From Pseudomonas kribbensis (GTDB lineage Bacteria; Pseudomonadota; Gammaproteobacteria; Pseudomonadales; Pseudomonadaceae): 64,000 nucleotides of DNA. The position numbers were made by a program, and so were the translations under genes. Below the pieces are notes generated by a model, which saw only the letters and a program-made list of their open reading frames with translations, was not told the DNA's origin and searched no databases. This document shows, one piece after another, positions 5,718 through 62,129 of this stretch (position 1 is its first letter; the number at the start of each line of letters is the position of its first letter). The stretch is from NCBI RefSeq assembly GCF_003352185.1, contig NZ_CP029608.1, forward strand, positions 3,658,001-3,722,000. Reading direction: 5' to 3'.

Positions 5718-8700
5718 TCAAGCAGAACGCAGCCTTTCAAGCAGCACCTGCAACGGATGACGCACCGCTCGGTCGGCCTGCCTCTTGACCTGGCTGCGGC
5801 ACGAATAGCCGGTCGCCAACGCCTCGCCCCGCTCTGCCGGTGCCTCGATCTGCTTCGCCCAGGACTGCTCGTAAATCACCGCCAAGGTCTCGCGATTGCG
5901 CGCTTCGTGGCCGTACGTGCCGGACATCCCGCAGCAACCGGTGGCCTGGGTCGTCAGCTTCAAACCGACCCGTTCGAACACTTGCTCCCATTGCCGGGTC
6001 GCGGCGGGCGCATTGGTCTTCTCGGTGCAGTGCGCCAGCAGACGGAAGGTTTCCTCGCGGCGCTGATCGACTTGCTCCGGCATGACCTTGAGCAGCCACT
6101 CCTGCACCAGCGCCACCTCCGGGCATTTTTCCATCCCCGGCACTTTCAGATATTCCTGGCGATAAACCAGCGTCATCGCCGGATCGAGCCCTACCAGCGG
6201 CACACCGATCTCGGCCAGCGCGCGCAGTTGCCCGGCATTGCGCAACGCCGCGCGATTGAACGCAGACAGGAAGCCCTGCACATGCAGCGGTTTGCCATTG
6301 GCGCTGAACGGTGCCAGATAAACCTGATAGCCCAGTCGCGAAATCAGCTCGATCAGATCCGCCAGCAATGGCGCCTCGAAATACCGGGTGAACGCATCCT
6401 GCACCAGCACCACGCTGCGCTCGCGTTGTGCTTGAGTCAGCGTCGAAAGCACCTCGACCGACGCCGGCTGAACCTGCCAGCGACGCATGGCCGCGTGGAA
6501 ATCGAAACGGCTGAGCAACGGCACATCGACCATGCCACCGAGTCGCTCGATCAAGCGGCGGCTGAACGAGGCGCCCATCAAACCGTTGTAGAGAAACGGA
6601 ATCCGCGCCATGTACGGAATCGTGTACTCCAGCGAGGCAATCAGATAATCCCGCGCCGGTCGCAGGTAACGGGTGTGGTACAGCTCCAGGAACCGCGAAC
6701 GGAAGTCCGGCACGTTGACCTTCACCGGGCACTGCCCCGCACAGGACTTGCACGCCAGGCACCCGGCCATGGCGTCGTACACCTCGTGGGAGAAGTCCTT
6801 TTCCTGGGCACGGCTGTTGCGCCAGCGCTGCAGCAATGTGCTGAAAAACGGCGGACGGCGACTGGCATCGGCCAACACATCGACACCCGCTTCGCCCTGC
6901 AAACGCAGCCATTCGCGAATCAGCGAGGCGCGGCCCTTGGGCGATTGCGCACGCTGGCGAGTGGCTTTCCACGACGGGCACATCGCATCGTCGGGATCGA
7001 AGTTGTAGCAGGCGCCGTTGCCGTTGCAGTGCATGGCCGCGCCGTAGTCCTGCCAGACTTTCTCGTCGATCTGCCGATCGAGTTCGCCGCGCAGGGTCAC
7101 TTCGTCGATTTTCAGCAATGCCGCGCCGGGAATATTCGGCGTGGCAATCTTGCCGGGATTGAACTGGTTGAACGGATCGAACGCCGCCTTCAACGCTTGC
7201 AGCGCCGGGTATAACTCGCCGAAAAAGGCCGGTGCGTATTCCGAGCGCAGGCCTTTGCCGTGCTCGCCCCACAACAGGCCACCGTAACGCTGGGTCAGCG
7301 CGGCGACGCCGTCCGACACCGGTCGTACCAACGCCGCTTGTTGCGGGTCTTTCATGTCGAGAATCGGCCGCACGTGCAGCACGCCGGCATCGACGTGGCC
7401 GAACATGCCGTATTGCAGATTGTGGCTGTCGAGCAGGTCGCGCAGCTCGGCGATGTATTCGGCCAGGTGTTGCGGCGGCACGGCGGTGTCTTCGACAAAG
7501 GGCTGCGGCCGCGCTTCACCGGCGACGTTGCCGAGCAAACCCACCGCACGCTTGCGCATGCCATAAACGCGGTTCACCGCCGCATGACCGACGGCCAGCG
7601 TGTGGCCCAGCCGCTCGACCGTGGCATCGGTGCCCAAGTGCTGGATGAAAGCCTCGACCCGGCCTTGCAGCTCCTCGGGATCGTCGCCGCAGAACTCCAC
7701 CAGATTGATCCCCAGCGTCGGCCGTTCGGCGCTTTCCGGGAAATACTCGGCAACGCCGTGCCAGACGATGTCCTGCATCGCCAGCAACAGCACTTTGGAG
7801 TCGACGGTTTCAATCGACAGCGGCTTGAGCGCCATCAACGCCCGGGCATCGCGCAACGCGTCCATGAAGCCGGCGTAGCGGATGTTCACCAGCATGGTGT
7901 GCTTGGGGATCGGCAATACGTTGAGCTTGGCCTCGACCACAAACCCCAGCGAACCTTCGGCGCCGCACAGCACGCTGTTGAGGTTGAAACGGTTGTCGGC
8001 CTCGCGCAGGTGCGCCAGGTCGTAGCCGGTCAGGCAACGGTTGAGGTCAGGAAAGGTTTCCCGGATCAACTCGCCCTGCTCATCGATGATCTGCCGCGCG
8101 CAGCGATACACTTCGCCGGCCCGGCCCTCGCGGGAGCACTCCGCTGCCAGTTCGCTTTCTTCCAGTGGACGACCGTGCAAGCGCTCGCCACCGCGCAGGA
8201 CCATGTGCAGTTCCAGCACGTGATCGCGGGTCTTGCCGTAGGTGCAGCTGCCCTGGCCGCTGGCATCGGTGTTGATCATGCCGCCGACGGTGGCGCGGTT
8301 CGAGGTCGACAGTTCCGGGGCAAAAAACAGCCCGGCGGATTTCAGCGCGGCGTTCAGTTGATCCTTCACCACGCCGGCCTGCACCCGCACCCAACGCTGT
8401 TCAACGTTGATTTCAAGGATGCGGTTCATGTGCCGCGACAGGTCCACGACGATGCCGTCGGTCAACGACTGGCCGTTGGTGCCGGTGCCTCCGCCGCGAG
8501 GTGTTATCACCACCTTCTGGTACGCCGGCTCGGCAATCAGGCGTGCCAGCAACGCCACGTCGTCGGCGTCGCGCGGGAATACCGCTGCTTGCGGCAAGCG
8601 CTGATAGATCGAGTTGTCAGTGGCCAGCACCACGCGGCTGGCGTAGTCGGCACTGATTTCGCCGCGAAAACCGCTGGTTTCAAGGGCTTTGAGAAACTGT

Positions 8701-8747
8701 TGGTAGTCGGTGTTCAGCGTGGTGGAAGGCGACAGCTGGGCAATCAT
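5718..8747 (-). CDS. ydiJ: YdiJ-type FAD/Fe-S dehydrogenase (D-2-hydroxyglutarate dehydrogenase family)
   Basis: Large flavin and iron-sulfur enzyme of 1009 residues that oxidises a D-2-hydroxy acid, D-2-hydroxyglutarate in characterised YdiJ proteins, passing electrons to the respiratory chain or a carrier. Order: FAD-binding PCMH domain (residues ~45-270, PRGGGTGTNGQ motif), FAD-linked oxidase C-terminal domain (~270-540), ferredoxin-like cluster site CLACKSCAGQCP (~670), then a CCG-type cysteine domain ending with GCCGMSG. Length matches E. coli YdiJ. The start at 8747 (MIAQLSPST) is chosen because it aligns with the YdiJ N-terminus; an in-frame ATG 72 bases upstream would add an unlikely extension. 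Divergent from a LysR gene. Confidence 0.92.
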   Translation of the reverse strand: MIAQLSPSTTLNTDYQQFLKALETSGFRGEISADYASRVVLATDNSIYQRLPQAAVFPRDADDVALLARLIAEPAYQKVVITPRGGGTGTNGQSLTDGIVVDLSRHMNRILEINVEQRWVRVQAGVVKDQLNAALKSAGLFFAPELSTSNRATVGGMINTDASGQGSCTYGKTRDHVLELHMVLRGGERLHGRPLEESELAAECSREGRAGEVYRCARQIIDEQGELIRETFPDLNRCLTGYDLAHLREADNRFNLNSVLCGAEGSLGFVVEAKLNVLPIPKHTMLVNIRYAGFMDALRDARALMALKPLSIETVDSKVLLLAMQDIVWHGVAEYFPESAERPTLGINLVEFCGDDPEELQGRVEAFIQHLGTDATVERLGHTLAVGHAAVNRVYGMRKRAVGLLGNVAGEARPQPFVEDTAVPPQHLAEYIAELRDLLDSHNLQYGMFGHVDAGVLHVRPILDMKDPQQAALVRPVSDGVAALTQRYGGLLWGEHGKGLRSEYAPAFFGELYPALQALKAAFDPFNQFNPGKIATPNIPGAALLKIDEVTLRGELDRQIDEKVWQDYGAAMHCNGNGACYNFDPDDAMCPSWKATRQRAQSPKGRASLIREWLRLQGEAGVDVLADASRRPPFFSTLLQRWRNSRAQEKDFSHEVYDAMAGCLACKSCAGQCPVKVNVPDFRSRFLELYHTRYLRPARDYLIASLEYTIPYMARIPFLYNGLMGASFSRRLIERLGGMVDVPLLSRFDFHAAMRRWQVQPASVEVLSTLTQAQRERSVVLVQDAFTRYFEAPLLADLIELISRLGYQVYLAPFSANGKPLHVQGFLSAFNRAALRNAGQLRALAEIGVPLVGLDPAMTLVYRQEYLKVPGMEKCPEVALVQEWLLKVMPEQVDQRREETFRLLAHCTEKTNAPAATRQWEQVFERVGLKLTTQATGCCGMSGTYGHEARNRETLAVIYEQSWAKQIEAPAERGEALATGYSCRSQVKRQADRAVRHPLQVLLERLRSA

Positions 8748-8906
8748 CGGGCGTGCAATCTCGGTCAAAAACGGGCCGTGTGGCGGTGAACAGTTGTGCG
8801 CAATGAATGATTGCGTCACGCTCCCGCCATCTCATAGGCCTTATGTTCATTGCAGAGCGATGTCGGGACAACCGTAAAATCGACCCGCAATCCATGACTA
8901 AAACGA

Positions 8907-10495: not shown

Positions 10496-12109
10496 TTACG
10501 CATCCTGCAGAATCAGATCCGCGCCCTTCTCCGCCACCATCAGCACCGCCGCATGGGTGTTGCCCGACGTGACGTTGGGGAAGATCGACGCATCGACGAT
10601 CCGCAAGCCCTCAAGGCCATGCACCTTGAGGCGCTTGTCGACCACCGAAGTCTGCTCATCCGCACCCATCGCGCAGGAACCGCACAGGTGATAGATCGAG
10701 CCGCAGTTGTCACGGAAGTACTGCAGCATCTGCTCGTCGGTTTCCACCGCCGGCCCCGGCAAGACTTCATCAACCGTGATGCCCTTCAGCGCCGGAGCGC
10801 CCATGATCTTGCGCATCAGTCGACTGCCCTGGATGACCTCGTCGATGTCCTTCTGCGTGCTCAGGTAGTTCGGGTCGATCAACGCGGCATCGCGCGGATT
10901 CTTCGAGGCAATCGTGATGTGACCACGACTGGTCGGGCGGCACGGGTTGAAGCACAGCAGAAAGCCTGAATACGGCTCGGGCTTGAGGCTGGCCTTGTTG
11001 TTTTTCGGAATCTGGTACGACAGCGGGTTGAAATACAGCTGCAGGTTCGGATGGCTCTGCTCCGAGTTGCCTCGAAAGAAACCGCCCGCCTGATTGACGC
11101 TCATCGCCAGCGCGCCCTTGCGGGTCAGCAGGTATTTCACGCCGAGCTTGAACTGGCCGAACAGCGAGCTCAGCTCATCATTCAACGTCGGGATATTGGC
11201 CTTGTAGTAGTAGCTGACGCACAGGTGATCCTGCAGGTTCTGCCCCACTGCCGGCAGGTGTTTGACCAGCGGAATCTGATGCTTGGCCAGCAAGGCACGA
11301 TCCGCCACGCCGGACAGTTGCAGGATCTTCGGCGTGTCGACAGCACCGGCGCACAGGATCACTTCCTTGCGCGCCGTGAAGGTTCGCACCACGCCATGCT
11401 GGGTGATGGATATCCCCGTGGCACGTCGCTGGCTTTCATCGAACAGCACACGGTCGACCAGCGCGTAGTGCTCGACTGTCAGGTTTGGCCGGCTCAGTGC
11501 CGGATGCAGATGGGCGAAGCTGCTGGAGCTGCGCTGACCGTTGCGGGTGTTGACGTCATAGATGCCCGCACCTTCGAATTTCGGACCGTTGAAATCATCG
11601 CTGCGCGGGTAACCGAGTTCGTCGCAGCCCTTGAGGAACACGTCGCAGATCGGGTGGGTCTGGCCGGCCATCGGGGTGATGCTGATCGGGCCGCTGCCAC
11701 CGTGGTATTCGCTGTCGCCCAGCGGATGGTTTTCCAGTTTGCGGAAGTACGGCAGCACATCCTTGAAGCCCCAGCCGTCATTGCCGTTGGCCGCCCAGTC
11801 GTTGAAATCATGGGCCTGACCACGTACGTAGATCATCGCGTTGATCGAGCCCGAACCGCCCTGGACCTTGCCGCGCGGGGCGTAGATTTCGCGATTGCCC
11901 AACTGCTTCTGCGGCTGGCTGTAGTACATCCAGTTGAAGGTCGGGTTGTAATACATTTTGGCGAAGCCGACCGGGATCTTGAACCACAGGGAACTGTCCT
12001 TGCCGCCCGCCTCCAGCAGCAGCACCGTGTGTTGGCCCGAGGCCGAGAGCCGATTGGCCAGCACGCAGCCAGCGGCGCCTGCGCCAGCGATGATGTAGTC
12101 GTATGTCAT
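10496..12109 (-). CDS. GMC-family FAD-dependent alcohol dehydrogenase (choline-dehydrogenase-like)
   Basis: Flavoprotein of 537 residues that oxidises an alcohol group to an aldehyde or ketone. The ADP-binding GAGAAGCVLANRLS motif is at residues ~8-21 with the acidic end of the second strand in LLLEAGG (~33), the GMC signature 1 region GGSGSINAMIYVRG is near 83-96, and the C-terminal part with CGSCAMG and VDASIFP (about 460-510) contains the catalytic-base region. It is the last gene of the group aldA-like / MFS / enolase-superfamily / GMC, separated from the preceding gene by 60 bp. In this setting it probably oxidises the alcohol or sugar that enters the pathway. Substrate not determined. 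Confidence 0.9.
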   Translation of the reverse strand: MTYDYIIAGAGAAGCVLANRLSASGQHTVLLLEAGGKDSSLWFKIPVGFAKMYYNPTFNWMYYSQPQKQLGNREIYAPRGKVQGGSGSINAMIYVRGQAHDFNDWAANGNDGWGFKDVLPYFRKLENHPLGDSEYHGGSGPISITPMAGQTHPICDVFLKGCDELGYPRSDDFNGPKFEGAGIYDVNTRNGQRSSSSFAHLHPALSRPNLTVEHYALVDRVLFDESQRRATGISITQHGVVRTFTARKEVILCAGAVDTPKILQLSGVADRALLAKHQIPLVKHLPAVGQNLQDHLCVSYYYKANIPTLNDELSSLFGQFKLGVKYLLTRKGALAMSVNQAGGFFRGNSEQSHPNLQLYFNPLSYQIPKNNKASLKPEPYSGFLLCFNPCRPTSRGHITIASKNPRDAALIDPNYLSTQKDIDEVIQGSRLMRKIMGAPALKGITVDEVLPGPAVETDEQMLQYFRDNCGSIYHLCGSCAMGADEQTSVVDKRLKVHGLEGLRIVDASIFPNVTSGNTHAAVLMVAEKGADLILQDA

Positions 12110-12169: not shown

Positions 12170-13387
12170 TCAGCCCTTGGCCGGCGATGTGTCTTTGACG
12201 TCGGCCGGGGTCGGGGCCATTTGCAGGTGCAGACGCTCACCGGTGTACGGCGAATGCTTGCGCACCACGTCCATGTTCAGCTCCACGCCCAGGCCCGGTT
12301 CGGTGGACGGGATGATGTAGCCGTCCTCCCACTGCAACGGCTTTTTCAGGACCTCGGCGTGGAAGCCGCCCCAGGTCTCGATGCTTTCCTGAATCAGGAA
12401 GTTCGGTGTGCAGGCCGCGAGCTGGAAACTCGCCGCTGCGCCAATCGGCCCGTTGTACAGATGCGGGGCGATTTGCGCGTAATAGGCCTCGGCCATGCTG
12501 GCGATCTTCTTGCCTTCGAGCAGGCCGCCGCAGCGCGCCACGTTCATCTGCAGAATCGACGCACCGCCGGCCTGCAACAGCTTGAAGAATTCGTACTTGG
12601 TGGTCAGGCGCTCACCGGTGGCAATCGGAATGCTGGTCTTGGCCGCGACTTGCGCCATGGCCTCTTCCTGGCCCGGCGGCACCGGCTCTTCGAACCACAG
12701 CGGGTCGTATTTCTCCAGGCGTTTGGCCAGCCGAATCGCCGAGGACGGAACCATTTGCCCGTGGGTGCCGAACAGCAGATCGCACTTGTTGCCCACCGCT
12801 TCGCGGATCTTGCGGCAGAAGGTTTCGCAGCGCTCCAGCACTTCCAGCGAGATCTGGTGCCCGGAGTACGCGGTGTACGGCCCGGCCGGGTCGAACTTCA
12901 CGGCGGTGAAGCCCTTGTTCATGTTGTCGATGGCGCACTCGGCCGCCAGGTCCGGGTCGTCGTAGTCATACTCGCCACGGCTGTTGACCGGGTACAGGTA
13001 GGTGTAGGAACGCAGGCGTTCGTGAACCTTGCCGCCGAGCAGTTCGTAGACCGGCTTGTTCGCAGCCTTGCCGACGATGTCCCAGCAGGCCATTTCCAGG
13101 CCGCTGACCACGCCCATCATGGTCAGGTCGGGACGCTGGGTGAAACCACTCGAATAGGCCTGACGGAAGAAGCGCTCGATGTGGTGCGGATCCTGATTCA
13201 GCAGGTAGCGCTCAAACACGTCTTCGATGATCGGCAGCATGGCTTTGGGGCCGAAGGTGGCGGCGTAGATCTCGCCGACGCCTTCGATGCCGCAGTCGGT
13301 CTTGAGCTTGACGAACAGCCAGTACATGCCGCCGATATGCGGTGGCGGTACGGCGACGATATGGGTTTCAAGGGCGACGATTTTCAT
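12170..13387 (-). CDS. Enolase-superfamily dehydratase-like protein (mandelate racemase/galactonate dehydratase type)
   Basis: A 405-residue member of the MR/MLE family, which abstracts the proton alpha to a carboxylate in sugar acids. Two metal-binding Glu are visible in FEEPV and ATGERL, and a His in APHLYNGP. Against E. coli DgoD, whose metal Asp183 and base His185 lie in a D-x-H motif 26 residues before the FEEP-type Glu, this protein has Gly-Thr-His at the same spacing: the first metal ligand is Gly. The Asp paired with the barrel-end His is Asn (LQMNVA). The start at 13387 has AGGTG six bases upstream; a GTG nine bases earlier is less likely. The gene lies between the MFS and GMC genes. 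Product unknown. Confidence 0.88.
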   Translation of the reverse strand: MKIVALETHIVAVPPPHIGGMYWLFVKLKTDCGIEGVGEIYAATFGPKAMLPIIEDVFERYLLNQDPHHIERFFRQAYSSGFTQRPDLTMMGVVSGLEMACWDIVGKAANKPVYELLGGKVHERLRSYTYLYPVNSRGEYDYDDPDLAAECAIDNMNKGFTAVKFDPAGPYTAYSGHQISLEVLERCETFCRKIREAVGNKCDLLFGTHGQMVPSSAIRLAKRLEKYDPLWFEEPVPPGQEEAMAQVAAKTSIPIATGERLTTKYEFFKLLQAGGASILQMNVARCGGLLEGKKIASMAEAYYAQIAPHLYNGPIGAAASFQLAACTPNFLIQESIETWGGFHAEVLKKPLQWEDGYIIPSTEPGLGVELNMDVVRKHSPYTGERLHLQMAPTPADVKDTSPAKG

Positions 13388-13388
13388 C

Positions 13389-14723
13389 TCAGGCACCTGT
13401 CTTGTTCAAAGAAGTCTTGTTCAAAGATTTTTTATTGATCCGGGCACGCAGGGTCACGGCAGCCAGAGTGCCGATCAGACCGATGGTGGCGATGTAGCCG
13501 AAATAGAACTTGTAGCCGAGGGCGCCAGGGAAATGTTCAGTGAGGTAGCCGTTGATCAACGGGATGAACGCATCCGGCATGTAACCGACCACCGAGACGA
13601 TGCCGATGGCCAGTCCGGTGATGCGCAGCGGAATGTTGCAGCTGTCGAGGATCGCCCAGTACAGACCGCGAATCGCGTAGGTCATCAGGCCGATGAAAAT
13701 CACTGTCGCGATCAGCAGCCCCATGCTGTTGAGTGCCGGGAACACGATCAGGCCGACGATTGCCAGACTCGCCAGCAACAGCGCAACGATCAGCACCGAG
13801 ATGTTCGAAAACTTGTCCCCCAGCCAGCCGCCGCCGATGCCGCCGATCGGGCGCATCCACAGCTTGATGGTGGTGATGGTGCCGGCCATGACGGCGGTCA
13901 GGCCGCTGCCTTGCAGGTAGTCCGAGAAACTGTAGGTGGCCCAGAAGATGTGATAACCGCAGAACACGATCGCGGTGACCAGCCACAGTTCAGGGATCTT
14001 CACCAGGGTCGCCAGATCAGTGAGCAGGTTGAACTTGCCCTTCTCTACCGGCGGCGTGTCCTCCATCGACTTCGGATCCTTGATCAGCACCAGCACACAG
14101 CCGATGGCGATACAGGTGAAGGCGTAGAGGTAAACCACGTGCTTGAAACCTTCAGCGGTGGACTCGCCACGGGTTTCGGTAGCGAAGGCGAACAACGCCA
14201 GCGCAACCGTCGCCAGCAGCGCTTCGACCAGCCCGCGACCGCCATCGAGAATGCCAAAGAACCGGCCCTGCTCGGTGTGATGGGCAATCATCTTCACGCG
14301 CTTGAGCACCGAGGCCCAGAACGTCAGGCCGGTGGTCAGCCCCCAGCAACCGAAGATGATCATCAACCCGGTCATCGACGGCGCCGTCGAGTACCACAGG
14401 CCCAGCGCGCCGGTTGCCACCAGCGAAAAGAAGATCAGGAAACGCGGCGCGATACGGTCGGCCAGCCAACCGCTCGGCAAGTAGCTGAGCAGGAAAATCG
14501 TCCCAAGCATCGAGTACAGATAACCCAGCTCGCTGTGGTTGATCTGGAACACCTCGAGCATGGTGGTCTGGTAGACCTGGCGCAGGTACAGAATCGGATA
14601 GATCGCACCGGCGGCCAGCACCAGCAACATCAGTTGGAAATAGCGACTTCCCTTGTCGCTGCGGCTTTTCGAAGCCGAATCGGAACCCTGAACAGCGGCA
14701 GCAGAGGATGCATGCTTGGACAT
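13389..14723 (-). CDS. MFS transporter, sugar-acid/organophosphate-type
   Basis: Inner-membrane carrier of 444 residues with about twelve hydrophobic helices, a charged N-terminal tail of about 25 residues, and an SGWLADRIAPR loop after the second helix. The overall pattern is that of MFS importers for sugar acids or organophosphates. It sits between an aldehyde dehydrogenase and an enolase-superfamily enzyme, so import of their shared precursor is the likely role. The C-terminal tail contains a five-residue duplication (KSLN-KTSLN-KTGA) encoded by a 15-bp tandem repeat. Its stop codon lies 2 bp upstream of the next ATG. Confidence 0.88.
   Translation of the reverse strand: MSKHASSAAAVQGSDSASKSRSDKGSRYFQLMLLVLAAGAIYPILYLRQVYQTTMLEVFQINHSELGYLYSMLGTIFLLSYLPSGWLADRIAPRFLIFFSLVATGALGLWYSTAPSMTGLMIIFGCWGLTTGLTFWASVLKRVKMIAHHTEQGRFFGILDGGRGLVEALLATVALALFAFATETRGESTAEGFKHVVYLYAFTCIAIGCVLVLIKDPKSMEDTPPVEKGKFNLLTDLATLVKIPELWLVTAIVFCGYHIFWATYSFSDYLQGSGLTAVMAGTITTIKLWMRPIGGIGGGWLGDKFSNISVLIVALLLASLAIVGLIVFPALNSMGLLIATVIFIGLMTYAIRGLYWAILDSCNIPLRITGLAIGIVSVVGYMPDAFIPLINGYLTEHFPGALGYKFYFGYIATIGLIGTLAAVTLRARINKKSLNKTSLNKTGA
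13399..13428 (-). repeat. 15-bp tandem duplication at MFS gene 3' end
   Basis: GTCTTGTTCAAAGAA is followed directly by GTCTTGTTCAAAGAT, 14 of 15 bases identical. In the MFS reading frame each copy encodes KTSLN-like residues, so the duplication stays in frame and only lengthens the C-terminal tail. Confidence 0.85.
13429..13436 (-). promoter_or_regulatory. A-rich Crc/Hfq-type motif before the enolase-superfamily gene
   Basis: The mRNA-sense strand reads AATAAAAA (pattern AAnAAnAA) about 41 bases before the ATG at 13387, inside the end of the upstream gene. This match is weaker evidence than the intergenic ones. Confidence 0.4.
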
Positions 14724-16337: not shown

Positions 16338-17270
16338 TCAGAAAATCGCCTTCGAAGGCTCAAGTTGGCGCTGCGCCAGCCAGATCTCTTCCTGCAGCCA
16401 CTGACTGAAGGCCTGCAATTGCGGCATCTGCGTCTGTTCCGGGCGGGTCACCAGCCAGTAGGACTGGTGGCCTTCGACATGGACGTTGTGCACCTGGGTC
16501 AACTGCCCGCTGGCCAGTTCCGAGGCGACCATGTGCCAGTCGGCAATGGTGATCCCCAGACCATCGACCGCCGCTTGAATGGCCAGATCCAGCAGGTCGA
16601 ATTCATAGCCGCCCTGGGTATCGACGCCCGTGATGCGCGCCGCGTCGAGCCAGTGTTTCCAGGTCAGGTAGCGCTGATCCTCGCGGGCCAGCACATGCAA
16701 CAGGGTCAGGCGATTGAGGTCGATGCCCTGATCGCCGCCCTCCCGCGCATACAGGGTCGGCGCGCACACGGCGATGTGTCGTTCCTGAATCAGCAGCGAA
16801 CTGTCGAGCCCGTCCCACTCGCCGTCGCCAAAACGGATCGCGCAATCGAGGGTGCTGGTTTCCGCGAGGCTGTCCTGCAAACGGGTGGTGATGCTCAGTT
16901 CCAGCTCCGGATGCTGCTCGCGCAGACGCCCGAGGCGCGGCATCAACCAGCGGCTGGTGAAGGTGGGCGGCGCGTTGATGTGCAGGCGATTGGCGTGGGT
17001 TTTCTGCTGGATGCTGCGCACGGTCAGCTCGATCTTGTCGAACGACTGATGCAGCGCCCGCAGCAGAATCTTGCCGGCACCGGTCAGTTCGAGATGGTGA
17101 TGGCGGCGCTCCAGCAGACTTTCGCCGAGCTGTTCTTCCAGTTGCCGCACCTGACGGCTGACCGCGCTCTGGGTGACGTTGAGCAACTCGGCGGCGCGGG
17201 TGAAGCTGCCGGTGCTGCCGGCCACTTCGAATGCTTTGAGTGCATTCAGGCCGGGCATTTTGCGTTTCAT
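16338..17270 (-). CDS. LysR-family regulator of the AldA/enolase-superfamily locus (GcvA-like)
   Basis: Regulator of 310 residues with helix-turn-helix SFTRAAELLNVTQSAVSRQVR (about residues 20-40) and a GcvA-type effector domain (APPTFTSRWLMPRL, IRFGDGEWDGL). The ATG at 17270 follows GAG at about 11 bases and gives the usual GcvA-like N-terminus; an ATG 48 bases upstream would add an unlikely extension. It is divergent from the porin gene and precedes the AldA-like gene on its own strand, so it stands between the two transcription units it probably controls. The candidate operator 10-mer occurs on both sides of it. Confidence 0.88.
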   Translation of the reverse strand: MKRKMPGLNALKAFEVAGSTGSFTRAAELLNVTQSAVSRQVRQLEEQLGESLLERRHHHLELTGAGKILLRALHQSFDKIELTVRSIQQKTHANRLHINAPPTFTSRWLMPRLGRLREQHPELELSITTRLQDSLAETSTLDCAIRFGDGEWDGLDSSLLIQERHIAVCAPTLYAREGGDQGIDLNRLTLLHVLAREDQRYLTWKHWLDAARITGVDTQGGYEFDLLDLAIQAAVDGLGITIADWHMVASELASGQLTQVHNVHVEGHQSYWLVTRPEQTQMPQLQAFSQWLQEEIWLAQRQLEPSKAIF

Positions 17271-17383
17271 ACAAGGCACTCGAAAACCACTGACAAGGCG
17301 CAAAGCATCCCACGACATTGGCGAATTGTCCTACAGGATTTTCCGAGTAACATGCATTCGATGCAGGTTTCCCTGACGTTTTT

Positions 17384-17455: not shown

Positions 17456-18634
17456 ATGCCCTTCCCTGCATCTTTGCGCCTGCGCACCACCTCCATCGCT
17501 CTGTTCTGCAGCATTGCCGCCCCGGCCATGGCGGTCCAGGTCACCGACAATCTCGACCTTGGCGGCGCCATTCGTGCCCGTTGGGACGTGGACCCGGATC
17601 GCGACATCCAGAAGTTCGGCCTCGACACGGTATTCCTCAGCGCCAAGTACAACTCCGACTCGTGGATCGGCGAAGCGCAATATCGCTTTTACGGCCGCTC
17701 CTACCCGTACCAGTACACCAAGAACTACGGCGATATCCGCTTCGCCAAGTTCGCGTGGGTCGGCTACAAGTTCAATCCCGACCAGCAAGTGCAAGTGGGC
17801 CTGAACACCGTGCCGTTCGGCTTGCAGCCGTACTTCGGCAGCACCTTCTACGAAACCCTGGGCAACGTCATCGGCCTGGAAGACGTGCAACAGATCGGCA
17901 CCAAATACATCCAGCAAAGCGGCGACTGGAACATCCAGGCCGGCTACTACCTGCGCCCGGCCTGGCAAGGCAAAGGCACCAGCAAAGGCGTGACGTATTC
18001 AAGCGTGGTGTCCGAAGCCGACAGCTACGTGGTCGACGGCAGCAACAACCAGGAACGCAACACCGTGGTGCTGCGAGTGGCCAAGGCGCTGGATCTGGGA
18101 CCGTGGAAATCCGAGGTCGGGATCTCCGGCCTGACCTCGAGCATCGAGAACAAAGACACCAACAAGGACGGTCGGCGCAACGCCGTGGCCGTGCACTACA
18201 TGGGCAAGAACGGCCCGTGGGGCGTGCAGTTGCAGGCGGCGCGGCAGCAGATGTCGCCGCGCAACCCCGGCAGCGAAGAGGTGGTGACCCTCGGTGGTTA
18301 CGACGGCACTTACAACGTCGCCAGTCGCGGCAATTTGTACGTGGCCGACCTGAGTTACGACGTGGGCGGCAAATACCTGTTTGACCAGATCAGCGGGATC
18401 AAGCTGTACGCCAACTACAGCGCGTTCGACAAGTCCGCCAGCGGGTTCAAGACGTCCGAGCGGATGATCCTCGGCACCTCGTTTTCCGTCAGCAAATTGT
18501 GGGTGGCCACGGAATGGCTGTTCGGCAAAAACGATCCGTATATCGGTGGCAGCAGCTACACTCAGAGCCTTGGTGCGGGTGGGCTGGATCAGTGGGAAAA
18601 CCAGTTATATGTGAACGTCGGTTACTACTTCTGA
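17456..18634 (+). CDS. Outer-membrane porin of the catabolic locus
   Basis: Predicted beta-barrel protein of 392 residues. A signal peptide (hydrophobic core ending APAMA, cleavage near residue 26) is followed by alternating polar/aromatic strands and by a C-terminal VNVGYYF ending in Phe, the usual signal for outer-membrane assembly. No Cys is seen in the mature part. The sequence suggests a substrate-specific porin of the phosphate-selective/OprP-like or carbohydrate group, but I do not recognise the exact family. Divergent from the LysR gene and with its own A-rich leader motif, it probably admits the substrate used by the AldA/enolase-superfamily enzymes. Confidence 0.82.
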   Translation: MPFPASLRLRTTSIALFCSIAAPAMAVQVTDNLDLGGAIRARWDVDPDRDIQKFGLDTVFLSAKYNSDSWIGEAQYRFYGRSYPYQYTKNYGDIRFAKFAWVGYKFNPDQQVQVGLNTVPFGLQPYFGSTFYETLGNVIGLEDVQQIGTKYIQQSGDWNIQAGYYLRPAWQGKGTSKGVTYSSVVSEADSYVVDGSNNQERNTVVLRVAKALDLGPWKSEVGISGLTSSIENKDTNKDGRRNAVAVHYMGKNGPWGVQLQAARQQMSPRNPGSEEVVTLGGYDGTYNVASRGNLYVADLSYDVGGKYLFDQISGIKLYANYSAFDKSASGFKTSERMILGTSFSVSKLWVATEWLFGKNDPYIGGSSYTQSLGAGGLDQWENQLYVNVGYYF

Positions 18635-18836: not shown

Positions 18837-19712
18837 ATGCGCCAACTGCCCTCGCTCAACACCCTGCGCGTGTTCGAAGAAGTCGCCCGTCATCGCAGTT
18901 TCAGCCAGGCCGCTATCGGGCTGAACGTCACCCAGGGCGCGGTCAGTCGCCAGATCAAACAGCTTGAAGACTACCTCGGCGTGGCGCTGTTCGTGCGCAC
19001 GCCTCAAGGGCTGTCGCTGACCGAAGCCGGCAGCAATCTTTCCCCGCATCTGGCCGAGGCCTTCGACCACATCGAACGCGCCTTGCAAGCGGTGCGTGTG
19101 CCGAATCTGCGCCAACGCTTGAAAGTGCTCGCACCGCCGACCTGGGCCACGCGCTGGCTGTCGCCACACCTGCGCGCGTTCTGCCAGCGCTACCCGGACA
19201 TCAACCTCAGCGTCACCAACCAGATCGGCCACGACAGCCTCACGGAAGTCGATTGCCACATCCGCTTCGGCCTCGCGGCAGCACCCCACTGCGTCAGCCA
19301 GTTGCTGGTAATGGAACGCCACATCGCGGTGGCCAGCCCGGAACTGTTCAACGGTGATCAGCCACCGGACCTGCGGCAGTTTCCGCTGCTGCACATCCTG
19401 CACGACGGCAAGCGTTTGAAGGTCTGGGAAAACTGGCTGGCGGCCATGGGCCGGGATGACATCGATGCCGGGCAAGGGCTGGAATTCAGCACCCTGGACC
19501 AGGTGATCCACACCGCGCTGGCCGGCGGCGGTCTGGCAGTGATCGACCGGCAGATGATCGAAAAGGAACTGGCCAACGGCAGCCTGCTGCCGATCACCCC
19601 GATTGAGGTGATCGGCCCTTATGGCTATTGGCTGGATGTGGCGAATGACAAGCAGGGGTTGTCGAAGGTGAAGCTGTTTACCGAGTGGCTAGGAGTTGTC
19701 AGCAACCCCTGA
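18837..19712 (+). CDS. LysR-family regulator (GcvA-like) next to the fae operon
   Basis: Regulator of 291 residues with helix-turn-helix SFSQAAIGLNVTQGAVSRQIK (about residues 20-40) and a GcvA-like effector domain. It ends 10 bp from the end of the convergent MFS gene, the last gene of the fae operon, rather than next to that operon's promoter. Control of the operon is therefore suggested by neighbourhood only. CGGAG lies 11 bases before the ATG. Confidence 0.88.
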   Translation: MRQLPSLNTLRVFEEVARHRSFSQAAIGLNVTQGAVSRQIKQLEDYLGVALFVRTPQGLSLTEAGSNLSPHLAEAFDHIERALQAVRVPNLRQRLKVLAPPTWATRWLSPHLRAFCQRYPDINLSVTNQIGHDSLTEVDCHIRFGLAAAPHCVSQLLVMERHIAVASPELFNGDQPPDLRQFPLLHILHDGKRLKVWENWLAAMGRDDIDAGQGLEFSTLDQVIHTALAGGGLAVIDRQMIEKELANGSLLPITPIEVIGPYGYWLDVANDKQGLSKVKLFTEWLGVVSNP

Positions 19713-19722
19713 CCTGCAATCG

Positions 19723-21087
19723 TCAGACGGGTGTCGCGACTTTTCCGACCGTCCCTACCGCGACTTCCACCGGACTCTGCGCCTTGCACGCCTGACTCAA
19801 CGTCAACGATTTTGTCTCCGGCGCCCACGCCCAAGACAGCAACGCGCCAATCCCCAGAATCGCCGCAAGAATGCCCATGGTCGGGCTCAAGCCGATCCCC
19901 GCCACGCTCACCGGCAACAGAAACGTACTGACCGCCGACCCCAGTCGGCTGACCGCCGTCGCCAGACCAATCCCGCTGGCCCGTACTTCCGTCGGGAAAC
20001 TCTCCGCCGGGAACACGCCCACCAGGTTGCTCACCGCCGACAGCACAAGCGTGAACACACCGAACACCAGCACCATCAGCCACGCCGCACTGCCCGGCAG
20101 CACTGCCAGCAGAAACAACGCCACCGCCAGAATGATGAACGAGTTGATCAGGAACCCGCGCCGGGTGAATTTGATCGTGCACCAGATGCCGATCAACGCG
20201 CCGAGGATCAGCAGCATGTTGAGCATCAGCTCGGTGCCGAAGCCTTCGGCCAGGCCCATCTTCTGCAGGATCGACGGCAGGAAGGTGTAGATGGCGAAGT
20301 ACGGCATGACGATGCAGACGAAGAACAGGCAGTTGAATGCCGTGCGCTTGCGGTACTCGGGGCTGAACAGCACCGCGTAGCCCGAGCGGGTTTCGCTGGA
20401 GCGGGTTTCATCCAGCTCGACGTTGTCGCCCAGATGCTTTTTGACGATGGCACGGGCTTCGGCCACCCGGCCCTGATTGACCAGCCAGCGCGGTGATTCC
20501 GGCGTACCGATTCGGGCGATCAGAATCAACGCCGCCGGGATCGCCGACGACGCCAGCATCCAGCGCCAGGCATCATCACCGAGGCTGAGCATGGCCGTGC
20601 CGACGAAGGTTGCTGCGACGTAGCCGAAGGTCCAGATCACGCTGAACGAACCCAGCAACACGCCGCGATGTTTCTTCGGTGCGAACTCGGCGAGCATCGC
20701 GTGGCCGACGCTGAAATCCCCGCCCAGGCCGATGCCGATCAGCACCCGGCAGAGGAACAGGCTCATGGCGGTTTCGACGTAGAACTGCATCACCGAAGCG
20801 AGCGTGATCAGCACAAAACTGACCAGGAAGATTTTCTGCCGGCCGACCTTGTCCGAGATCCAGCCGAAAAACAGACTGCCGAGAAACAGGCCGATCAATG
20901 CCGATGCGCCGATCAGGCCTTGCCAGAACGCATCGAGCTGCATCTGCGGGCTGAGCAAAGTGAATGCGATGCCGATCAGGCCAAGAATGTAGCCGTCGGT
21001 GAAATGCGCGCCGAAGGTCAGGCCGGCGATCTTGATATGGAAGCGCCCGATGGGCAGGTCATCGATCTTTACGGGTTGAGCGGACAT
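19723..21087 (-). CDS. MFS transporter, sugar/aromatic-acid porter type
   Basis: Proton-linked inner-membrane importer of 454 residues with about twelve helices. The DKVGRQK loop follows helix 2, the RVLIGIGLGGDFSVGHAMLAEFAPKKHRG region (helices 4-5) is typical of sugar porters and aromatic acid/H+ symporters, and SPRWLVNQGR precedes the central loop as in sugar porters. GGAG seven bases before the ATG at 21087 fixes the start; an in-frame ATG twelve bases upstream is rejected. It is the distal gene after fae, aldo/keto reductase and semialdehyde dehydrogenase, with an 89-bp gap holding a REP-like palindrome. It probably imports the substrate of those enzymes. Confidence 0.88.
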   Translation of the reverse strand: MSAQPVKIDDLPIGRFHIKIAGLTFGAHFTDGYILGLIGIAFTLLSPQMQLDAFWQGLIGASALIGLFLGSLFFGWISDKVGRQKIFLVSFVLITLASVMQFYVETAMSLFLCRVLIGIGLGGDFSVGHAMLAEFAPKKHRGVLLGSFSVIWTFGYVAATFVGTAMLSLGDDAWRWMLASSAIPAALILIARIGTPESPRWLVNQGRVAEARAIVKKHLGDNVELDETRSSETRSGYAVLFSPEYRKRTAFNCLFFVCIVMPYFAIYTFLPSILQKMGLAEGFGTELMLNMLLILGALIGIWCTIKFTRRGFLINSFIILAVALFLLAVLPGSAAWLMVLVFGVFTLVLSAVSNLVGVFPAESFPTEVRASGIGLATAVSRLGSAVSTFLLPVSVAGIGLSPTMGILAAILGIGALLSWAWAPETKSLTLSQACKAQSPVEVAVGTVGKVATPV

Positions 21088-21102
21088 GTTCGTCTCCAAT
21101 TG

Positions 21103-21110
21103 TTGTTATT
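21103..21110 (-). promoter_or_regulatory. A-rich Crc/Hfq-type motif before the MFS gene
   Basis: The mRNA-sense strand reads AATAACAACAATTGGAGAC: the AAnAAnAA match AATAACAA lies only about 9 bases before the GGAG ribosome-binding site of the MFS gene. Confidence 0.55.
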
Positions 21111-21139
21111 GACGGAGAAACGGAAAGCTCTGGGAGAAA

Positions 21140-21163
21140 CCTGCGGGAGCGAACTCCCACAGG
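21140..21163. repeat. Single REP-like palindrome
   Basis: CCTGCGGGAG / CTCCCACAGG around a CGAA loop, one mismatch. It is a single REP unit between the semialdehyde dehydrogenase and MFS genes and may reduce distal expression or stabilise the upstream message. Confidence 0.7.
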
Positions 21164-21176
21164 ATTCGGGGGGGGC

Positions 21177-22610
21177 CTAGAGACCGCCCATCAACAGGTA
21201 TTTGATCTCCAGATAGTCATCCAGACCGTACTTCGAACCTTCACGCCCAAGGCCCGATTCCTTGATGCCACCGAACGGTGCCACCTCCGTGGAGATGATC
21301 CCTTCGTTGATGCCGACCATCCCGGCTTCCAGCCCTTCGGCCATGCGCCAGACCCGGCCGATGTCGCGGCTGTAGAAGTACGCCGACAATCCGAACGGCG
21401 TGTCATTGGCCCGCGCCAGCACTTCGGCTTCGTCCTTGAAGCGGAAGCACGCGGCCACCGGGCCGAAGGTTTCGTCCTGGGCAATCAGCATGTCGCCGCT
21501 GGCTTCGGTGAGGATGGTCGGTTCGTAGAACGTGCCGCCCAGCGCATGCCGACGACCGCCGCACAACAGCGTGGCGCCCTTCTCCAGCGCATCGCTCACA
21601 TGGGCTTCGACCTTGGCGAGCGCAGCCGCGTTGATCAGCGGACCTTGTTCGGTGTCACCGTCCAGCGCACTGCCCACGCGCATCGCCGCCACGGCTTCGG
21701 CGAGTTTGCCGGTGAAGGCTTCGTAGACGCCGTCCTGAATGAAGAAGCGGTTGACGCACACGCAGGTCTGCCCGGTGTTGCGGAATTTCGAGGCCATCGC
21801 GCCTTTCACGGCCGCATCGATGTCGGCATCGTCGAAGACAATGAACGGCGCGTTGCCGCCCAGTTCCAGCGAGACCTTTTTCAGGGTGTCGGCAGCTTGG
21901 CGCATCAGCAGTTTGCCGGTGCGGGTCGAGCCGGTGAACGACAGCTTGCGCACCACGCTGGACGCTTGCAGCGCGCCGCCGATCGCCACCGCGTCGCCGG
22001 AAACGATGTTGAACACACCCGCCGGAATCCCGGCCTGCTCGGCCAGCACCGCCAGGGCGAATGCCGACAGCGGGGTTTCTTCCGACGGTTTGAGAATCAT
22101 CGTGCAACCCGCCGCCAGCGCCGGGCCGACCTTGCGAGTGACCATCGCCAGCGGGAAATTCCACGGGGTGATCGCCGCGACTACGCCAATGGCTTCCTTG
22201 GTCACGATGATCCGCGCGTCAGCCTTGTGGCTCGGAATCACATCGCCGTAGGCACGCTTGGCTTCTTCACCGAACCACTCAAGAAAACTCGCGGCGTAGA
22301 CTACTTCGCCCTTGGCCTCGGCCAGCGGTTTACCCTGCTCGCGGCTGAGCAAGGTCGCCAGTTCCTGCTGGTTGGCGAGCATCAGATCGCTCCAGCGTTT
22401 CAGCCGTTGGCTGCGCTCCTTGGCGGTGAGTTTGCGCCACGCCGGCAAGGCACGATTGGCCGCCTCGATAGCGAGGTTGGTTTCCTCGGCGCCGGCCTTT
22501 TGCACCTCAGTGATCAACTCACCGTTGGCCGGGTTGCGCACCGGATAGGTCGCGCCGCCGCTGCCCCACTGGCCGTCGATGAAGTTGCCGTGACGAATCA
22601 ACCCGCTCAT
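21177..22610 (-). CDS. NAD(P)-dependent succinate-semialdehyde dehydrogenase-like (GabD type)
   Basis: Cytosolic aldehyde dehydrogenase of 477 residues. Glu of LELGGNAPF (~250) and Cys of NTGQTCVCVNR (~284) are the catalytic pair; ITPWNFP and the C-terminal PFGGIKESGLGREGSKYGLDDYLE follow GabD closely. Its ATGA start overlaps the stop codon of the aldo/keto reductase gene, so the two are translationally coupled. Within the fae operon it probably oxidises an aldehyde product rather than serving GABA breakdown, as no gabT or gab genes are nearby. Confidence 0.92.
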   Translation of the reverse strand: MSGLIRHGNFIDGQWGSGGATYPVRNPANGELITEVQKAGAEETNLAIEAANRALPAWRKLTAKERSQRLKRWSDLMLANQQELATLLSREQGKPLAEAKGEVVYAASFLEWFGEEAKRAYGDVIPSHKADARIIVTKEAIGVVAAITPWNFPLAMVTRKVGPALAAGCTMILKPSEETPLSAFALAVLAEQAGIPAGVFNIVSGDAVAIGGALQASSVVRKLSFTGSTRTGKLLMRQAADTLKKVSLELGGNAPFIVFDDADIDAAVKGAMASKFRNTGQTCVCVNRFFIQDGVYEAFTGKLAEAVAAMRVGSALDGDTEQGPLINAAALAKVEAHVSDALEKGATLLCGGRRHALGGTFYEPTILTEASGDMLIAQDETFGPVAACFRFKDEAEVLARANDTPFGLSAYFYSRDIGRVWRMAEGLEAGMVGINEGIISTEVAPFGGIKESGLGREGSKYGLDDYLEIKYLLMGGL

Positions 22611-23641
22611 GCCACCGCTCCCTGCAACGTGAAACGTTCATGCCCCGGACGGGCCGTGCGCAGAATGCGTTTGCCGGCGGTGTAGTCGTTGATCACGTCG
22701 CACGGCGTGTAGTTGCGTTCCAGTTCATGCAGCTCTTCGGCGTCGAGTTTGGTTTCCAATGCCGCCAGTGCGCTGTCGAACTGCGCCGTGGTGTCGGCGC
22801 CGACCAGCATGCAATCCACGCCCGGGTGATTGGCGACCCAGGCCTGGGCGATCTGCGCGTTCGACACGCCACGGGCACGGGCCACGCGCTGCACCGAATG
22901 AGCGATCTCGAACGAGACTTCGTCGCTGTACATCTGCTGGGTGAAGAAGTCGGTCTGGTTGCGGGTCGATTGCACGTCACCGGTCAACAGGCCACGGGCC
23001 AGCGGACTGAACACCGACACGCCGATGCCCTGATCGCGGCAGAACGGAATCATCTCGCGCTCTTCTTCGCGGTACGCACAGTTCAGTTGCAGTTGCATAT
23101 TGATCGGCTTGACCCAGCCGTTGCGCTCGCAGGCCATGAGGATTTTCGCCAGTTGGCCGGTGAGCATGGTCGAGACGCCGATGTAACGTGCCTTGCCGGA
23201 GCGCACGATGTCGTTCAGTGCGCCCATGGTTTCCTCGACCGGGGTGTTCACGTCGAAGTAATGCAGCATGAACACGTCGACGTAATCCATGTCCAGACGC
23301 TTCAGCGAGGCATCGATGCTGTCCATGATGTGCTTGCGCGAATGGCCGCTGGCGTTGATCGCGTTGCGGGTGCCGTAGCCGACCTTGGTGGTGATCACCA
23401 GGTCTTCGCGACGGGCCAGACGCTTGACGATGCGCCCCACCACTTCTTCGCCGACACCGGCGGAATAGAAGTCCGCCAGGTCGATGAAGTTCACACCGTT
23501 GTTCAGCGCGTGAGCGACGATCGGCTCGCTTTGTTTTTCATTGAAGATCCACGGCTTCCAGTCCGGGGTGCCCATGTTCATGGTGCCCAGGCACAGGCGG
23601 GAGACTTGCAGGCCGGAGTTGCCCAAACGGATGTATTGCAT
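22607..23641 (-). CDS. Aldo/keto reductase
   Basis: NAD(P)H-dependent (beta/alpha)8-barrel enzyme of 344 residues. The tetrad is visible: Asp of FIDLADFY (~49), Tyr of the same motif (~54), Lys of VITTKVG (~80) and His of FMLHYFD (~122). The sequence resembles the YajO/Tas-like group rather than aldose reductases. The ATG at 23641 (MQYIRLGNSG) matches the family N-terminus and lies 10 bp after the fae stop. It overlaps the dehydrogenase gene by 4 bp. Substrate unknown; a sugar, hydroxyaldehyde or ketone made or used with the neighbouring dehydrogenase is plausible. Confidence 0.9.
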   Translation of the reverse strand: MQYIRLGNSGLQVSRLCLGTMNMGTPDWKPWIFNEKQSEPIVAHALNNGVNFIDLADFYSAGVGEEVVGRIVKRLARREDLVITTKVGYGTRNAINASGHSRKHIMDSIDASLKRLDMDYVDVFMLHYFDVNTPVEETMGALNDIVRSGKARYIGVSTMLTGQLAKILMACERNGWVKPINMQLQLNCAYREEEREMIPFCRDQGIGVSVFSPLARGLLTGDVQSTRNQTDFFTQQMYSDEVSFEIAHSVQRVARARGVSNAQIAQAWVANHPGVDCMLVGADTTAQFDSALAALETKLDAEELHELERNYTPCDVINDYTAGKRILRTARPGHERFTLQGAVA

Positions 23642-23651
23642 GGCGCGGACC

Positions 23652-24164
23652 TCAGGCTTTTGGCGTGTAGAAAGGGTTGCTGATGTGGTTGACCACATCC
23701 TTGAGCTGCGCGGTTTCCGGCTTGCCGGTCAGGGCGGCGCGGATCGCGGTGCGGCAGGCGTTGTAGTTGTTCAGGTAGACCGCATCCAAGTCATCGCAGG
23801 CCGGGTTGACCCAGTTGGCGGTGACGATCGCCCACTCGTCTTCGGCTTCCGGTGGCAGCGTGCCGTCGAGCAGCGCTTCGAGCACAGCCTTGGCGATACC
23901 GGCCTGGGAAGCGCCCCAGGTTGCGTTGCCGTGCAGGTCGCTGCTGATCGCAGCCTTGTTGACGTACAGGGTCATCGGCTTGACCGGGATGTTCGGCTGG
24001 GCGATCACCATGAACGGGCAATGACCCTGGCTCGGCGACGCCAGACTGTTGGCGAACGCCTGCCCCGCCGGGCCGTTGCGCGGGCCTATCAGGATATTGA
24101 TGTGCGCGGCGTTCACGCCCGGGCCTTCGAAACCTTCACCGATGTACAGGTCGAGTTCTTTCAT
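23652..24164 (-). CDS. fae: Formaldehyde-activating enzyme homologue (Fae)
   Basis: A 170-residue protein of the Fae family, the same length as the Methylorubrum extorquens enzyme, which joins formaldehyde to tetrahydromethanopterin. Shared features are the N-terminal GEGFEGPGVNAAHINILIGPR region with the active-site His at residue 21, a QPNIPVKPMTLYVNK segment matching APNLPCKPNTLMFNK, and the C-terminal NPF. Pseudomonads are not expected to make tetrahydromethanopterin, and no other gene of that pathway is in the window. It is the first gene of an operon with an aldo/keto reductase, an aldehyde dehydrogenase and an MFS importer. The true aldehyde and acceptor may differ from those of methylotrophs. 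Confidence 0.88.
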   Translation of the reverse strand: MKELDLYIGEGFEGPGVNAAHINILIGPRNGPAGQAFANSLASPSQGHCPFMVIAQPNIPVKPMTLYVNKAAISSDLHGNATWGASQAGIAKAVLEALLDGTLPPEAEDEWAIVTANWVNPACDDLDAVYLNNYNACRTAIRAALTGKPETAQLKDVVNHISNPFYTPKA

Positions 24165-53192: not shown

Positions 53193-54206
53193 CTATAAAC
53201 CTGCCTGAACCTTGTCCGCCACATCCTTCGGCAGCCACGCCTGCCACACATCCGGATGAGCCTTCATGAACGCCTCCGCCGCTTCCCGTGGCGGAGTGTG
53301 TTTCTCGCTCATATCAGCCAGTGCCTTGTTCAGATCCTCAATCGGAAAATCGACTTTGCTGAAGAACGCCGCGATCTGTGGGTATTGCTTCTGGAATGGC
53401 GCAGACACCCCGATCGACAGTTTCGAGGCCAGTGAACGGGTCGGTTTCGGGTTGGGGTTGTCGGCGTCCGTCAAGGTCTTCCAGGCATCGGCGTCGAACG
53501 GCGGCTCTTCCAGTTGCACCAGTTTGAACTTGCCGAGCAACGGCGTCGGCGACCAGTAATAGAACAGCACCGGTTTGCCCCGGCGGATCGACGAACTGAT
53601 TTCGGCATCCAGCGCCGCGCCGGAACCGCTGCGGAAATTGGTGAAGTCATCCTGCAGCCCGTACGCCGTGAGTTTCTGCTTGTTCACCACTTCCGAGGTC
53701 CAGCCGATGGGGCTGTTGAGGAACCGACCCTTGCTCGGAGTTTCCGGGTCCTTGAACACGTCCTTGTACTTCTTCAGATCACTGACACTGCGCAAGTCCG
53801 GCGCCAGCGGCTTGATGCCTTTGGCGGCATCGCCCTTGATCACATATTCCGGCACCCACCAGCCTTCGGTGGCGCCCTTGACCGTATCGCCCAGGCTGGC
53901 GACCTTGCCTTCGGCCTCGGCCTTGACCCACACCGGACTGCGCCCGGCCCATTCCTCGCCGATCACCTGAATGTCATTGTTGGCGAGCGCGGTTTCCAGG
54001 GTAATGGTGGTGCCCGGCAGCGTATCCGTCGGCAGACCATAACCCTTCTCGACGATGATCCGCAGGACATCGGTGATCAGGCTGCCGCTTTCCCAGTTCA
54101 GGTCGGCGAAGTGGATCGGGGTCTGTGCCGCATTGGCCGCTGGCATCGCAGCCATCAAGCCCATTGTGACCAGCCCAGCGGCCAGCCACCGTCGAAATCC
54201 GTTCAT
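53193..54206 (-). CDS. Glycine betaine/proline-type ABC substrate-binding protein
   Basis: Periplasmic protein of 337 residues with a signal peptide (cleavage after PAANA, about residue 26) and the OpuAC/ProX fold: IHFADLNWESGSLITDVLRIIVEKGYG at the start and the aromatic-rich GKPVLFYYWSPTPLL segment near residue 215 that usually cages the quaternary amine. GAGGTG before the ATG at 54206 fixes the start. No permease or ATPase gene is adjacent; the ligand is likely a betaine, choline or carnitine-like compound. Confidence 0.88.
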   Translation of the reverse strand: MNGFRRWLAAGLVTMGLMAAMPAANAAQTPIHFADLNWESGSLITDVLRIIVEKGYGLPTDTLPGTTITLETALANNDIQVIGEEWAGRSPVWVKAEAEGKVASLGDTVKGATEGWWVPEYVIKGDAAKGIKPLAPDLRSVSDLKKYKDVFKDPETPSKGRFLNSPIGWTSEVVNKQKLTAYGLQDDFTNFRSGSGAALDAEISSSIRRGKPVLFYYWSPTPLLGKFKLVQLEEPPFDADAWKTLTDADNPNPKPTRSLASKLSIGVSAPFQKQYPQIAAFFSKVDFPIEDLNKALADMSEKHTPPREAAEAFMKAHPDVWQAWLPKDVADKVQAGL

Positions 54207-54333
54207 GCTTTGCACCTCGTGCTGTTCACAGCAATAGCAGGATGGCCTGACAGAAGACCACAAGCCTCTGAATACTCAGTCAACTGACTGTAGACGAGGT
54301 TCCTGCTTTTTCAGGGGCATGCCACGGGCGAGG

Positions 54334-62119: not shown

Positions 62120-62129
62120 TTGCTGACAG

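Follow-up and report, generated by a model that had tools for sequence, protein, structure and literature searches.

A Fae-fold protein in a recurring catabolic operon of Pseudomonas kribbensis probably does a different job from canonical formaldehyde-activating enzyme

The gene fae, for formaldehyde-activating enzyme (Fae), serves as a marker gene for formaldehyde oxidation and methylotrophy, and the question raised here is what a Fae-like protein does at the head of a catabolic operon of Pseudomonas kribbensis. The operon, module I, lies in a stretch of 64,000 nucleotides (positions 3,658,001 to 3,722,000 of contig NZ_CP029608.1), hereafter the window, whose own numbering is used below; the genome is one contig of 6,324,282 bases with a single Fae. 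Module I is a real, recurring catabolic module using a Fae-fold protein in a genome without matches for the tested markers of tetrahydromethanopterin (H4MPT) metabolism, and its Fae-like protein probably does a different job from canonical Fae. The operon and the two genes beyond it are as follows:

23652..24164, minus strand: Fae-like protein, 170 amino acids, lead gene of module I
22607..23641, minus strand: aldo/keto reductase (AKR; PF00248, 226.6 bits), in an open reading frame from 23698, with the start inferred at MQYIRLG
21177..22610, minus strand: succinate-semialdehyde-dehydrogenase-like (GabD-like) enzyme (SSADH; TIGR01780), with an Arg/Arg/Ser site
19723..21099, minus strand: importer of the major facilitator superfamily (MFS), whose top solved relatives are GlcP and then SLC22 organic cation/carnitine transporters
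18837..19712, plus strand: LysR1, a GcvA-type regulator, convergent with module I
17456..18634, plus strand: outer-membrane porin-like protein, named by eye and without a Pfam or NCBIfam match

An initial annotation had described a full-length Fae homologue bearing the active-site His and leading an operon that also has an AKR, a semialdehyde dehydrogenase and an importer. Domain scores confirm this description, as does His21, which we take to be the catalytic, active-site His of Fae: the protein matches PF08714 at 169.3 bits (cut-off 27) and TIGR03126 at 138.6 (cut-off 118.05), and shares the fold of 1y5y, with 29% identity in the structural alignment. The SSADH passes TIGR01780 (697.7, cut-off 646.35) and scores 745.4 with the GabD equivalog PRK11241, below its cut-off of 828; its gene overlaps that of the AKR by 4 nt in the window. 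No RNA family was matched in the window, and carriage of the Fae-like gene by a phage was rejected, there being no phage match.

A complete H4MPT pathway elsewhere in the genome, which would chiefly have refuted the annotation's proposal of another role for Fae, was not found: Mch, Ftr and RFAP synthase had no match in the P. kribbensis genome, while the positive controls matched. Mpt_N (methylene-H4MPT dehydrogenase) also had no genome match, but here no control matched either. As a general claim, it is likely that the Fae-like protein is not an H4MPT enzyme.

The protein belongs to a group of its own. In a FastTree phylogeny of 63 proteins (midpoint root, support values not inspected), clade A, including the window and Ensifer proteins, joins clade B, apart from canonical Fae. 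The alignment took in 21 of the 120 listed clade A matches and 17 of the 120 listed matches of the Streptomyces clavuligerus search; seven of the 22 other Fae proteins were separated as divergent paralogues before residues were counted, giving 15 canonical, 23 clade A (window and Ensifer included), 18 clade B and 7 divergent sequences. Clade B, 41-48% identical to the window protein, is called actinobacterial from the seven named of its 18 members, all Actinomycetota (S. clavuligerus, locus L105, and proteins of Gaiellaceae metagenome-assembled genomes (MAGs)). Positions 12, 23, 51, 78, 82, 83, 118 and 163 are Leu, Asp, Leu, Gln, Met, Phe, Phe and His in all 15 canonical proteins, and Phe, Asn, Phe, His, Thr, Trp, Trp and Asn in 23/23 clade A and 18/18 clade B proteins. 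His21 is present in every canonical (15/15), clade A (23/23) and clade B (18/18) protein and, together with Asn69, Lys70 and Gln87, is near-invariant across clades A and B; it is absent from 7/7 divergent paralogues. In these paralogues (L121, L124, L125, L127, L133, L134 and L135) Met or Glu replaces it, and most of their genomes also have a canonical Fae; PF08714 thus spans at least three groups. Many related proteins carry the JGI label 5,6,7,8-tetrahydromethanopterin hydro-lyase.

A profile of the clade gives its members 224-335 bits, against at most 123 for other Fae. Of 298 genomes of the genus, 58 have a PF08714 match, one of these (genome G121) a fragment. The clade profile A1 matched 22 of 398 genomes of a phylum sample, six of them (window included) at 301-335 bits and the rest at no more than 117.1; 5 of 149 genomes in the family of G812 matched, as did 2 of 244 in one order sample and 31 of 250 in another, the latter with four at 224-324 bits, two of which were already in the phylum sample. 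The clade is patchy but spans classes, and a sharp gap divides it from other Fae, G1487 (224 bits) being intermediate. Matches were also found in 68 of 72,556 plasmid records, eight of them at 60-80% identity, which places the gene on large replicons as well.

The gene set of module I recurs beyond the window. A scan of genome contigs gave 294 confirmed stretches, and in all of the best 80 (94-99% identity; 79 titled Pseudomonas and one a MAG titled Paucimonas) AKR and SSADH adjoin Fae. The 73 long loci, with at least 7 kb downstream, include MFS in 65, LysR1 in 72, the porin in 57, an ATPase of a peptide-type ATP-binding cassette (ABC) transporter in 32 and, from the module II described below, LysR2 in 22 and ALDH2 in 19, genes farther downstream being under-counted where flanks end. 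The peptide-type ABC is found in 8/8 long loci without MFS versus 24/65 with it (p 0.0008, without correction for kinship). Five loci taken as Enterobacterales, all from one family search (L107, L111-L114), read MFS-Fae-AKR-SSADH with a divergent LysR1-type LysR alongside; L112 and L113 also have FGGY-kinase-like, MFS and GlpP-antiterminator-like genes (by eye) about 2-6 kb before Fae. Fae-AKR-SSADH recurs in Burkholderia (L102), Caballeronia (L103, L115), L108, L109 and L110, with MFS in five of these six, and G1487 (L136) has AKR and SSADH alongside Fae. Ensifer (L104) has the order AKR-Fae-SSADH and a peptide-type ABC that is 58-66% identical to that of Pseudomonas L139. In S. clavuligerus (L105), the one clade B member whose gene context was seen, the last gene of an OpuAC-type ABC overlaps fae by 4 nt, and fae is followed by a beta-hydroxyacid-dehydrogenase-family enzyme and then SSADH. 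The carriers are plant and soil bacteria: the module recurs in Pseudomonas, Enterobacterales, Burkholderia, Caballeronia and Ensifer, with a related set in S. clavuligerus. The distinct clade with fixed changes, and a gene set recurring across lineages, favour the earlier suggestion of a pathway that uses Fae for something else.

Below the porin-like gene lies a second set, module II:

16338..17318, minus strand: LysR2, regulator heading module II, with copies 67-75% identical near module I in L102, L103 and L108
14806..16236, minus strand: ALDH2, AldA-like aldehyde dehydrogenase (PRK10090 525, cut-off 500; best solved relative Aldehyde dehydrogenase A)
13389..14723, minus strand: MFS2 transporter, weakly PgtP-like
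12170..13396, minus strand: enolase-superfamily, acid-sugar-dehydratase-like protein (closest solved relative 4e4u, 822.9 bits)
10496..12109, minus strand: GMC-family dehydrogenase, choline-dehydrogenase-like (PRK02106 577.2, below cut-off 605)

Parts of module II adjoin module I in Burkholderia L102, Caballeronia L103, G963 (L108, L138) and G1487 (L136), with ALDH2 79% identical in L108 and 66% in L136. Within the genus, 53 of the 283 genomes searched have a relative of the enolase-superfamily protein (E 1e-100 or better); of these 53, 51 have a full-length Fae, G121 has a fragment and G130 has none. Six of the 58 Fae-positive genomes are missing from the 53; one, G023, is an explicit negative, and the other five may fall outside the 283, although Fisher's test counts all six as searched. 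That test (G121 fragment counted) gives p 8e-49 for the co-occurrence of Fae and the enolase relative, a descriptive value, the species being related. Both are on one contig in 40 genomes (G121 fragment included), within 37.3 kb in 38 of these. In G121 the remaining module I genes were not seen around the fragment; this locus (L141, G121:C1:2762000-2778000) looks like a decayed module I, with only the Fae fragment matched, near the porin and LysR2, and module II of that genome is located elsewhere (L142). Enlarged clusters were read in two genomes, G100 and G044 (L139:9263-19407 and L140), with a peptide-type ABC, a DddP-like M24 protein (334.9 bits, below cut-off 600), a HalD/PhyH-type protein, MFS and LysR between the porin and LysR2; dddP is listed in a Pseudomonas genome in the available part of one report (PMC8515041). 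Near module II, the window also encodes the D-2-hydroxyglutarate dehydrogenase YdiJ (1589.6 bits, cut-off 1350), plus a LysR gene (5718-8819).

The dehydrogenase and the importers offer clues to the substrate. An Arg, Arg, Ser site is reported for malic semialdehyde dehydrogenase in the portion of PMC11353897 available. When these residues are located in the alignment by their spacing from the catalytic Cys, they and the catalytic Cys and Glu are kept in 6/6 Fae-linked SSADHs compared (window, Ensifer, S. clavuligerus, G1487, G812 and Caballeronia), whereas ALDH2 is without the second Arg and the Ser. This retention points to a C4 semialdehyde acid as the substrate predicted for the SSADH-like enzyme, whose oxidoreductase partner belongs to one of two alcohol/aldehyde oxidoreductase families. 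Importers next to the operon include an OpuAC type in L105 and a ProXWV type after SSADH in L136, and a ProXWV-type set is also near module II in G963. Both families serve quaternary amines and related solutes. For the window MFS, SLC22 cation and carnitine transporters are among the best solved relatives, after GlcP. Taken together, the importers, the SSADH site and the DddP-like protein lean towards a zwitterion or onium substrate. Elsewhere in the window, and not tied to the operon, a ProX-like substrate-binding protein (53193-54263) is 49% identical to that of the G1487 cluster; its gene adjoins a TonB-receptor-like gene (51023-53155, by eye), and no permease gene was recognised next to it. 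Two neighbouring, similar, small lipoprotein-like genes (61463-62801, by eye) are perhaps a tandem duplication.

The best explanation as a whole, put forward tentatively, is that the Fae-like protein is a non-methanopterin paralogue acting in a three-enzyme route that would lead from a hydroxylated zwitterion, possibly a betaine, to a C4 dicarboxylate. The reactions that we infer for the two modules, with their order and substrate, run as follows. Module I would be a self-contained catabolic route whose importer takes up a small hydroxylated acid; the AKR, or the beta-hydroxyacid dehydrogenase in Streptomyces, would oxidise the alcohol of this acid to a semialdehyde, and the SSADH-like enzyme would convert a C4 semialdehyde acid into a C4 dicarboxylate. 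The Fae-like protein would carry out the remaining lyase, hydration or dehydration step, possibly the loss of an amine, using the Fae fold and the conserved His without methanopterin. Since MFS gives way to two different betaine-type ABC transporters in other genomes, a zwitterion such as a betaine is the most likely substrate, a reading of moderate confidence. In Pseudomonas, module II (GMC and aldehyde dehydrogenases, then the enolase-superfamily enzyme) may convert a larger vicinal-diol precursor into the substrate of module I.

Several observations weigh against this explanation. The Fae-like protein exceeds the TIGR03126 equivalog threshold, and the tests for H4MPT markers cover one genome only. 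The window importer is an MFS protein whose best solved match is a sugar transporter, GlcP, and the peptide-type ABC and the GntP-like permease of L110 carry no betaine signature. The gene sets are also not strictly linked: module II occurs in G130, which has no Fae, and in G121, which has just a fragment of it, Fae occurs without the enolase relative in G023, and the Fae-AKR-MFS set of L137 has no SSADH within it or next to it.

A bold guess at a specific form of this route, and an improbable one, makes the Fae-like protein the amine lyase of a pathway that consumes the headgroup of the betaine lipid diacylglyceryl-trimethylhomoserine (DGTS). Module II would oxidise glyceryl-trimethylhomoserine at its glycerol, giving a glycerate ether from which the enolase-superfamily enzyme would expel trimethylhomoserine, leaving pyruvate. 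The reductase would then oxidise trimethylhomoserine to the aldehyde, the Fae-like protein would eliminate trimethylamine to give fumarate semialdehyde, and SSADH would yield fumarate. Four of the changes relative to canonical Fae (Leu12Phe, Leu51Phe, Phe83Trp and Phe118Trp) could form a putative aromatic cage for the trimethylammonium group.

A possible, if doubtful, alternative to the zwitterion route is a sugar-acid route, in which a C4/C5 polyol or aldose would be turned by module II into a 2-keto-3-deoxy acid, which the Fae-like protein would dehydrate or tautomerise and the reductase and SSADH would carry on to oxaloacetate or 2-oxoglutarate. The enolase-superfamily protein scores best with a galactonate dehydratase model (262.3 bits, cut-off 311), ALDH2 is AldA-like, GlcP heads the solved matches of the MFS and a GntP-like permease (by eye) lies beside Fae in L110; however, in L107 and L111-L114 module I occurs by itself with an importer of its own, for which a 2-keto-3-deoxy acid would be an unusual cargo, and L105 and L136 have betaine-type importers. 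The description of the operon as 'sugar-type' may hold: a sugar acid (or a glycerol ether) would suit the linked enolase-superfamily protein, while the importers of other taxa are betaine-type or peptide-type.

It is unlikely that the protein handles formaldehyde, capturing on folate or another acceptor what an intermediate releases, for example by retro-aldol cleavage. Its Fae fold, its conserved His21 and a TIGR03126 score over the cut-off agree with such a role, but eight positions fixed in canonical Fae are altered, and no formaldehyde-releasing or one-carbon (C1) carrier enzyme was recognised in the conserved module. The earlier suggestion of a formaldehyde-releasing substrate accordingly finds no backing, and nothing points to methoxylated aromatics, for which no enzyme was recognised in either module; overall, the initial interpretation is partly supported.

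There is a small chance that the Fae-like protein has no catalytic role and serves the pathway as a binding or regulatory subunit, or as a sensor. According to the available part of PMC8879981, the condensation that Fae accelerates also proceeds spontaneously, and the absence of His21 from the seven divergent paralogues indicates that the fold can exist without that residue, but the near-invariant His21, Asn69, Lys70 and Gln87 of clades A and B suit catalysis. An ordinary H4MPT-dependent Fae using imported or cryptic methanopterin would explain the TIGR03126 score but is very improbable, given the unmatched Mch, Ftr and RFAP synthase, the separate clade with its fixed changes and operon partners unrelated to C1 transfer.

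No description of the operon appeared among the open-access titles and abstract openings listed; PMC5209427, in the part available, treats Gfa, an unrelated glutathione enzyme. If the clade does something else, C1 metabolism would be over-called in surveys of soil and plant metagenomes. Because the gene set is small and recurs with exchangeable importers, the question can be tested directly, and an answer would also bring a function to an enolase-superfamily group whose solved member, 4e4u, has only a general name.

Among known systems, the H4MPT-dependent Fae of M. extorquens (1y5y/1y60; TIGR03126) is 29% identical to the window protein in the structural alignment and differs from it at the eight fixed positions; the window protein also has catabolic operon partners, and its genome gave no Mch, Ftr or RFAP synthase match. 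The Fae-like proteins of clade B are closer, with identical fixed residues at the eight positions and, in S. clavuligerus, an adjoining SSADH and oxidoreductase, although that oxidoreductase is of the beta-hydroxyacid dehydrogenase family and the importer of the OpuAC type, unlike the AKR and MFS of the window. The L-carnitine operon of Acinetobacter, as given in the accessible part of its description, comprises LysR, a BCCT importer, CntA/CntB, malic semialdehyde dehydrogenase and malate dehydrogenase (PMC11353897). As far as that part goes, it has in common with module I a LysR regulator, an onium importer (in some relatives of the Fae operon) and an SSADH-like enzyme with the same Arg/Arg/Ser and a C4 dicarboxylate product, and differs in that the Fae-like protein and AKR stand here in place of the Rieske oxygenase. 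Among the scanned proteins of modules I and II no Rieske oxygenase was found, the rest of the genome not having been searched. The gamma-butyrolactone route of Agrobacterium (blcABC/attKLM) consists of three enzymes, a lactonase for the opening step, an alcohol dehydrogenase and an SSADH; its three-enzyme plan is like that of module I, the first enzyme being a lactonase there and a Fae-fold protein here.

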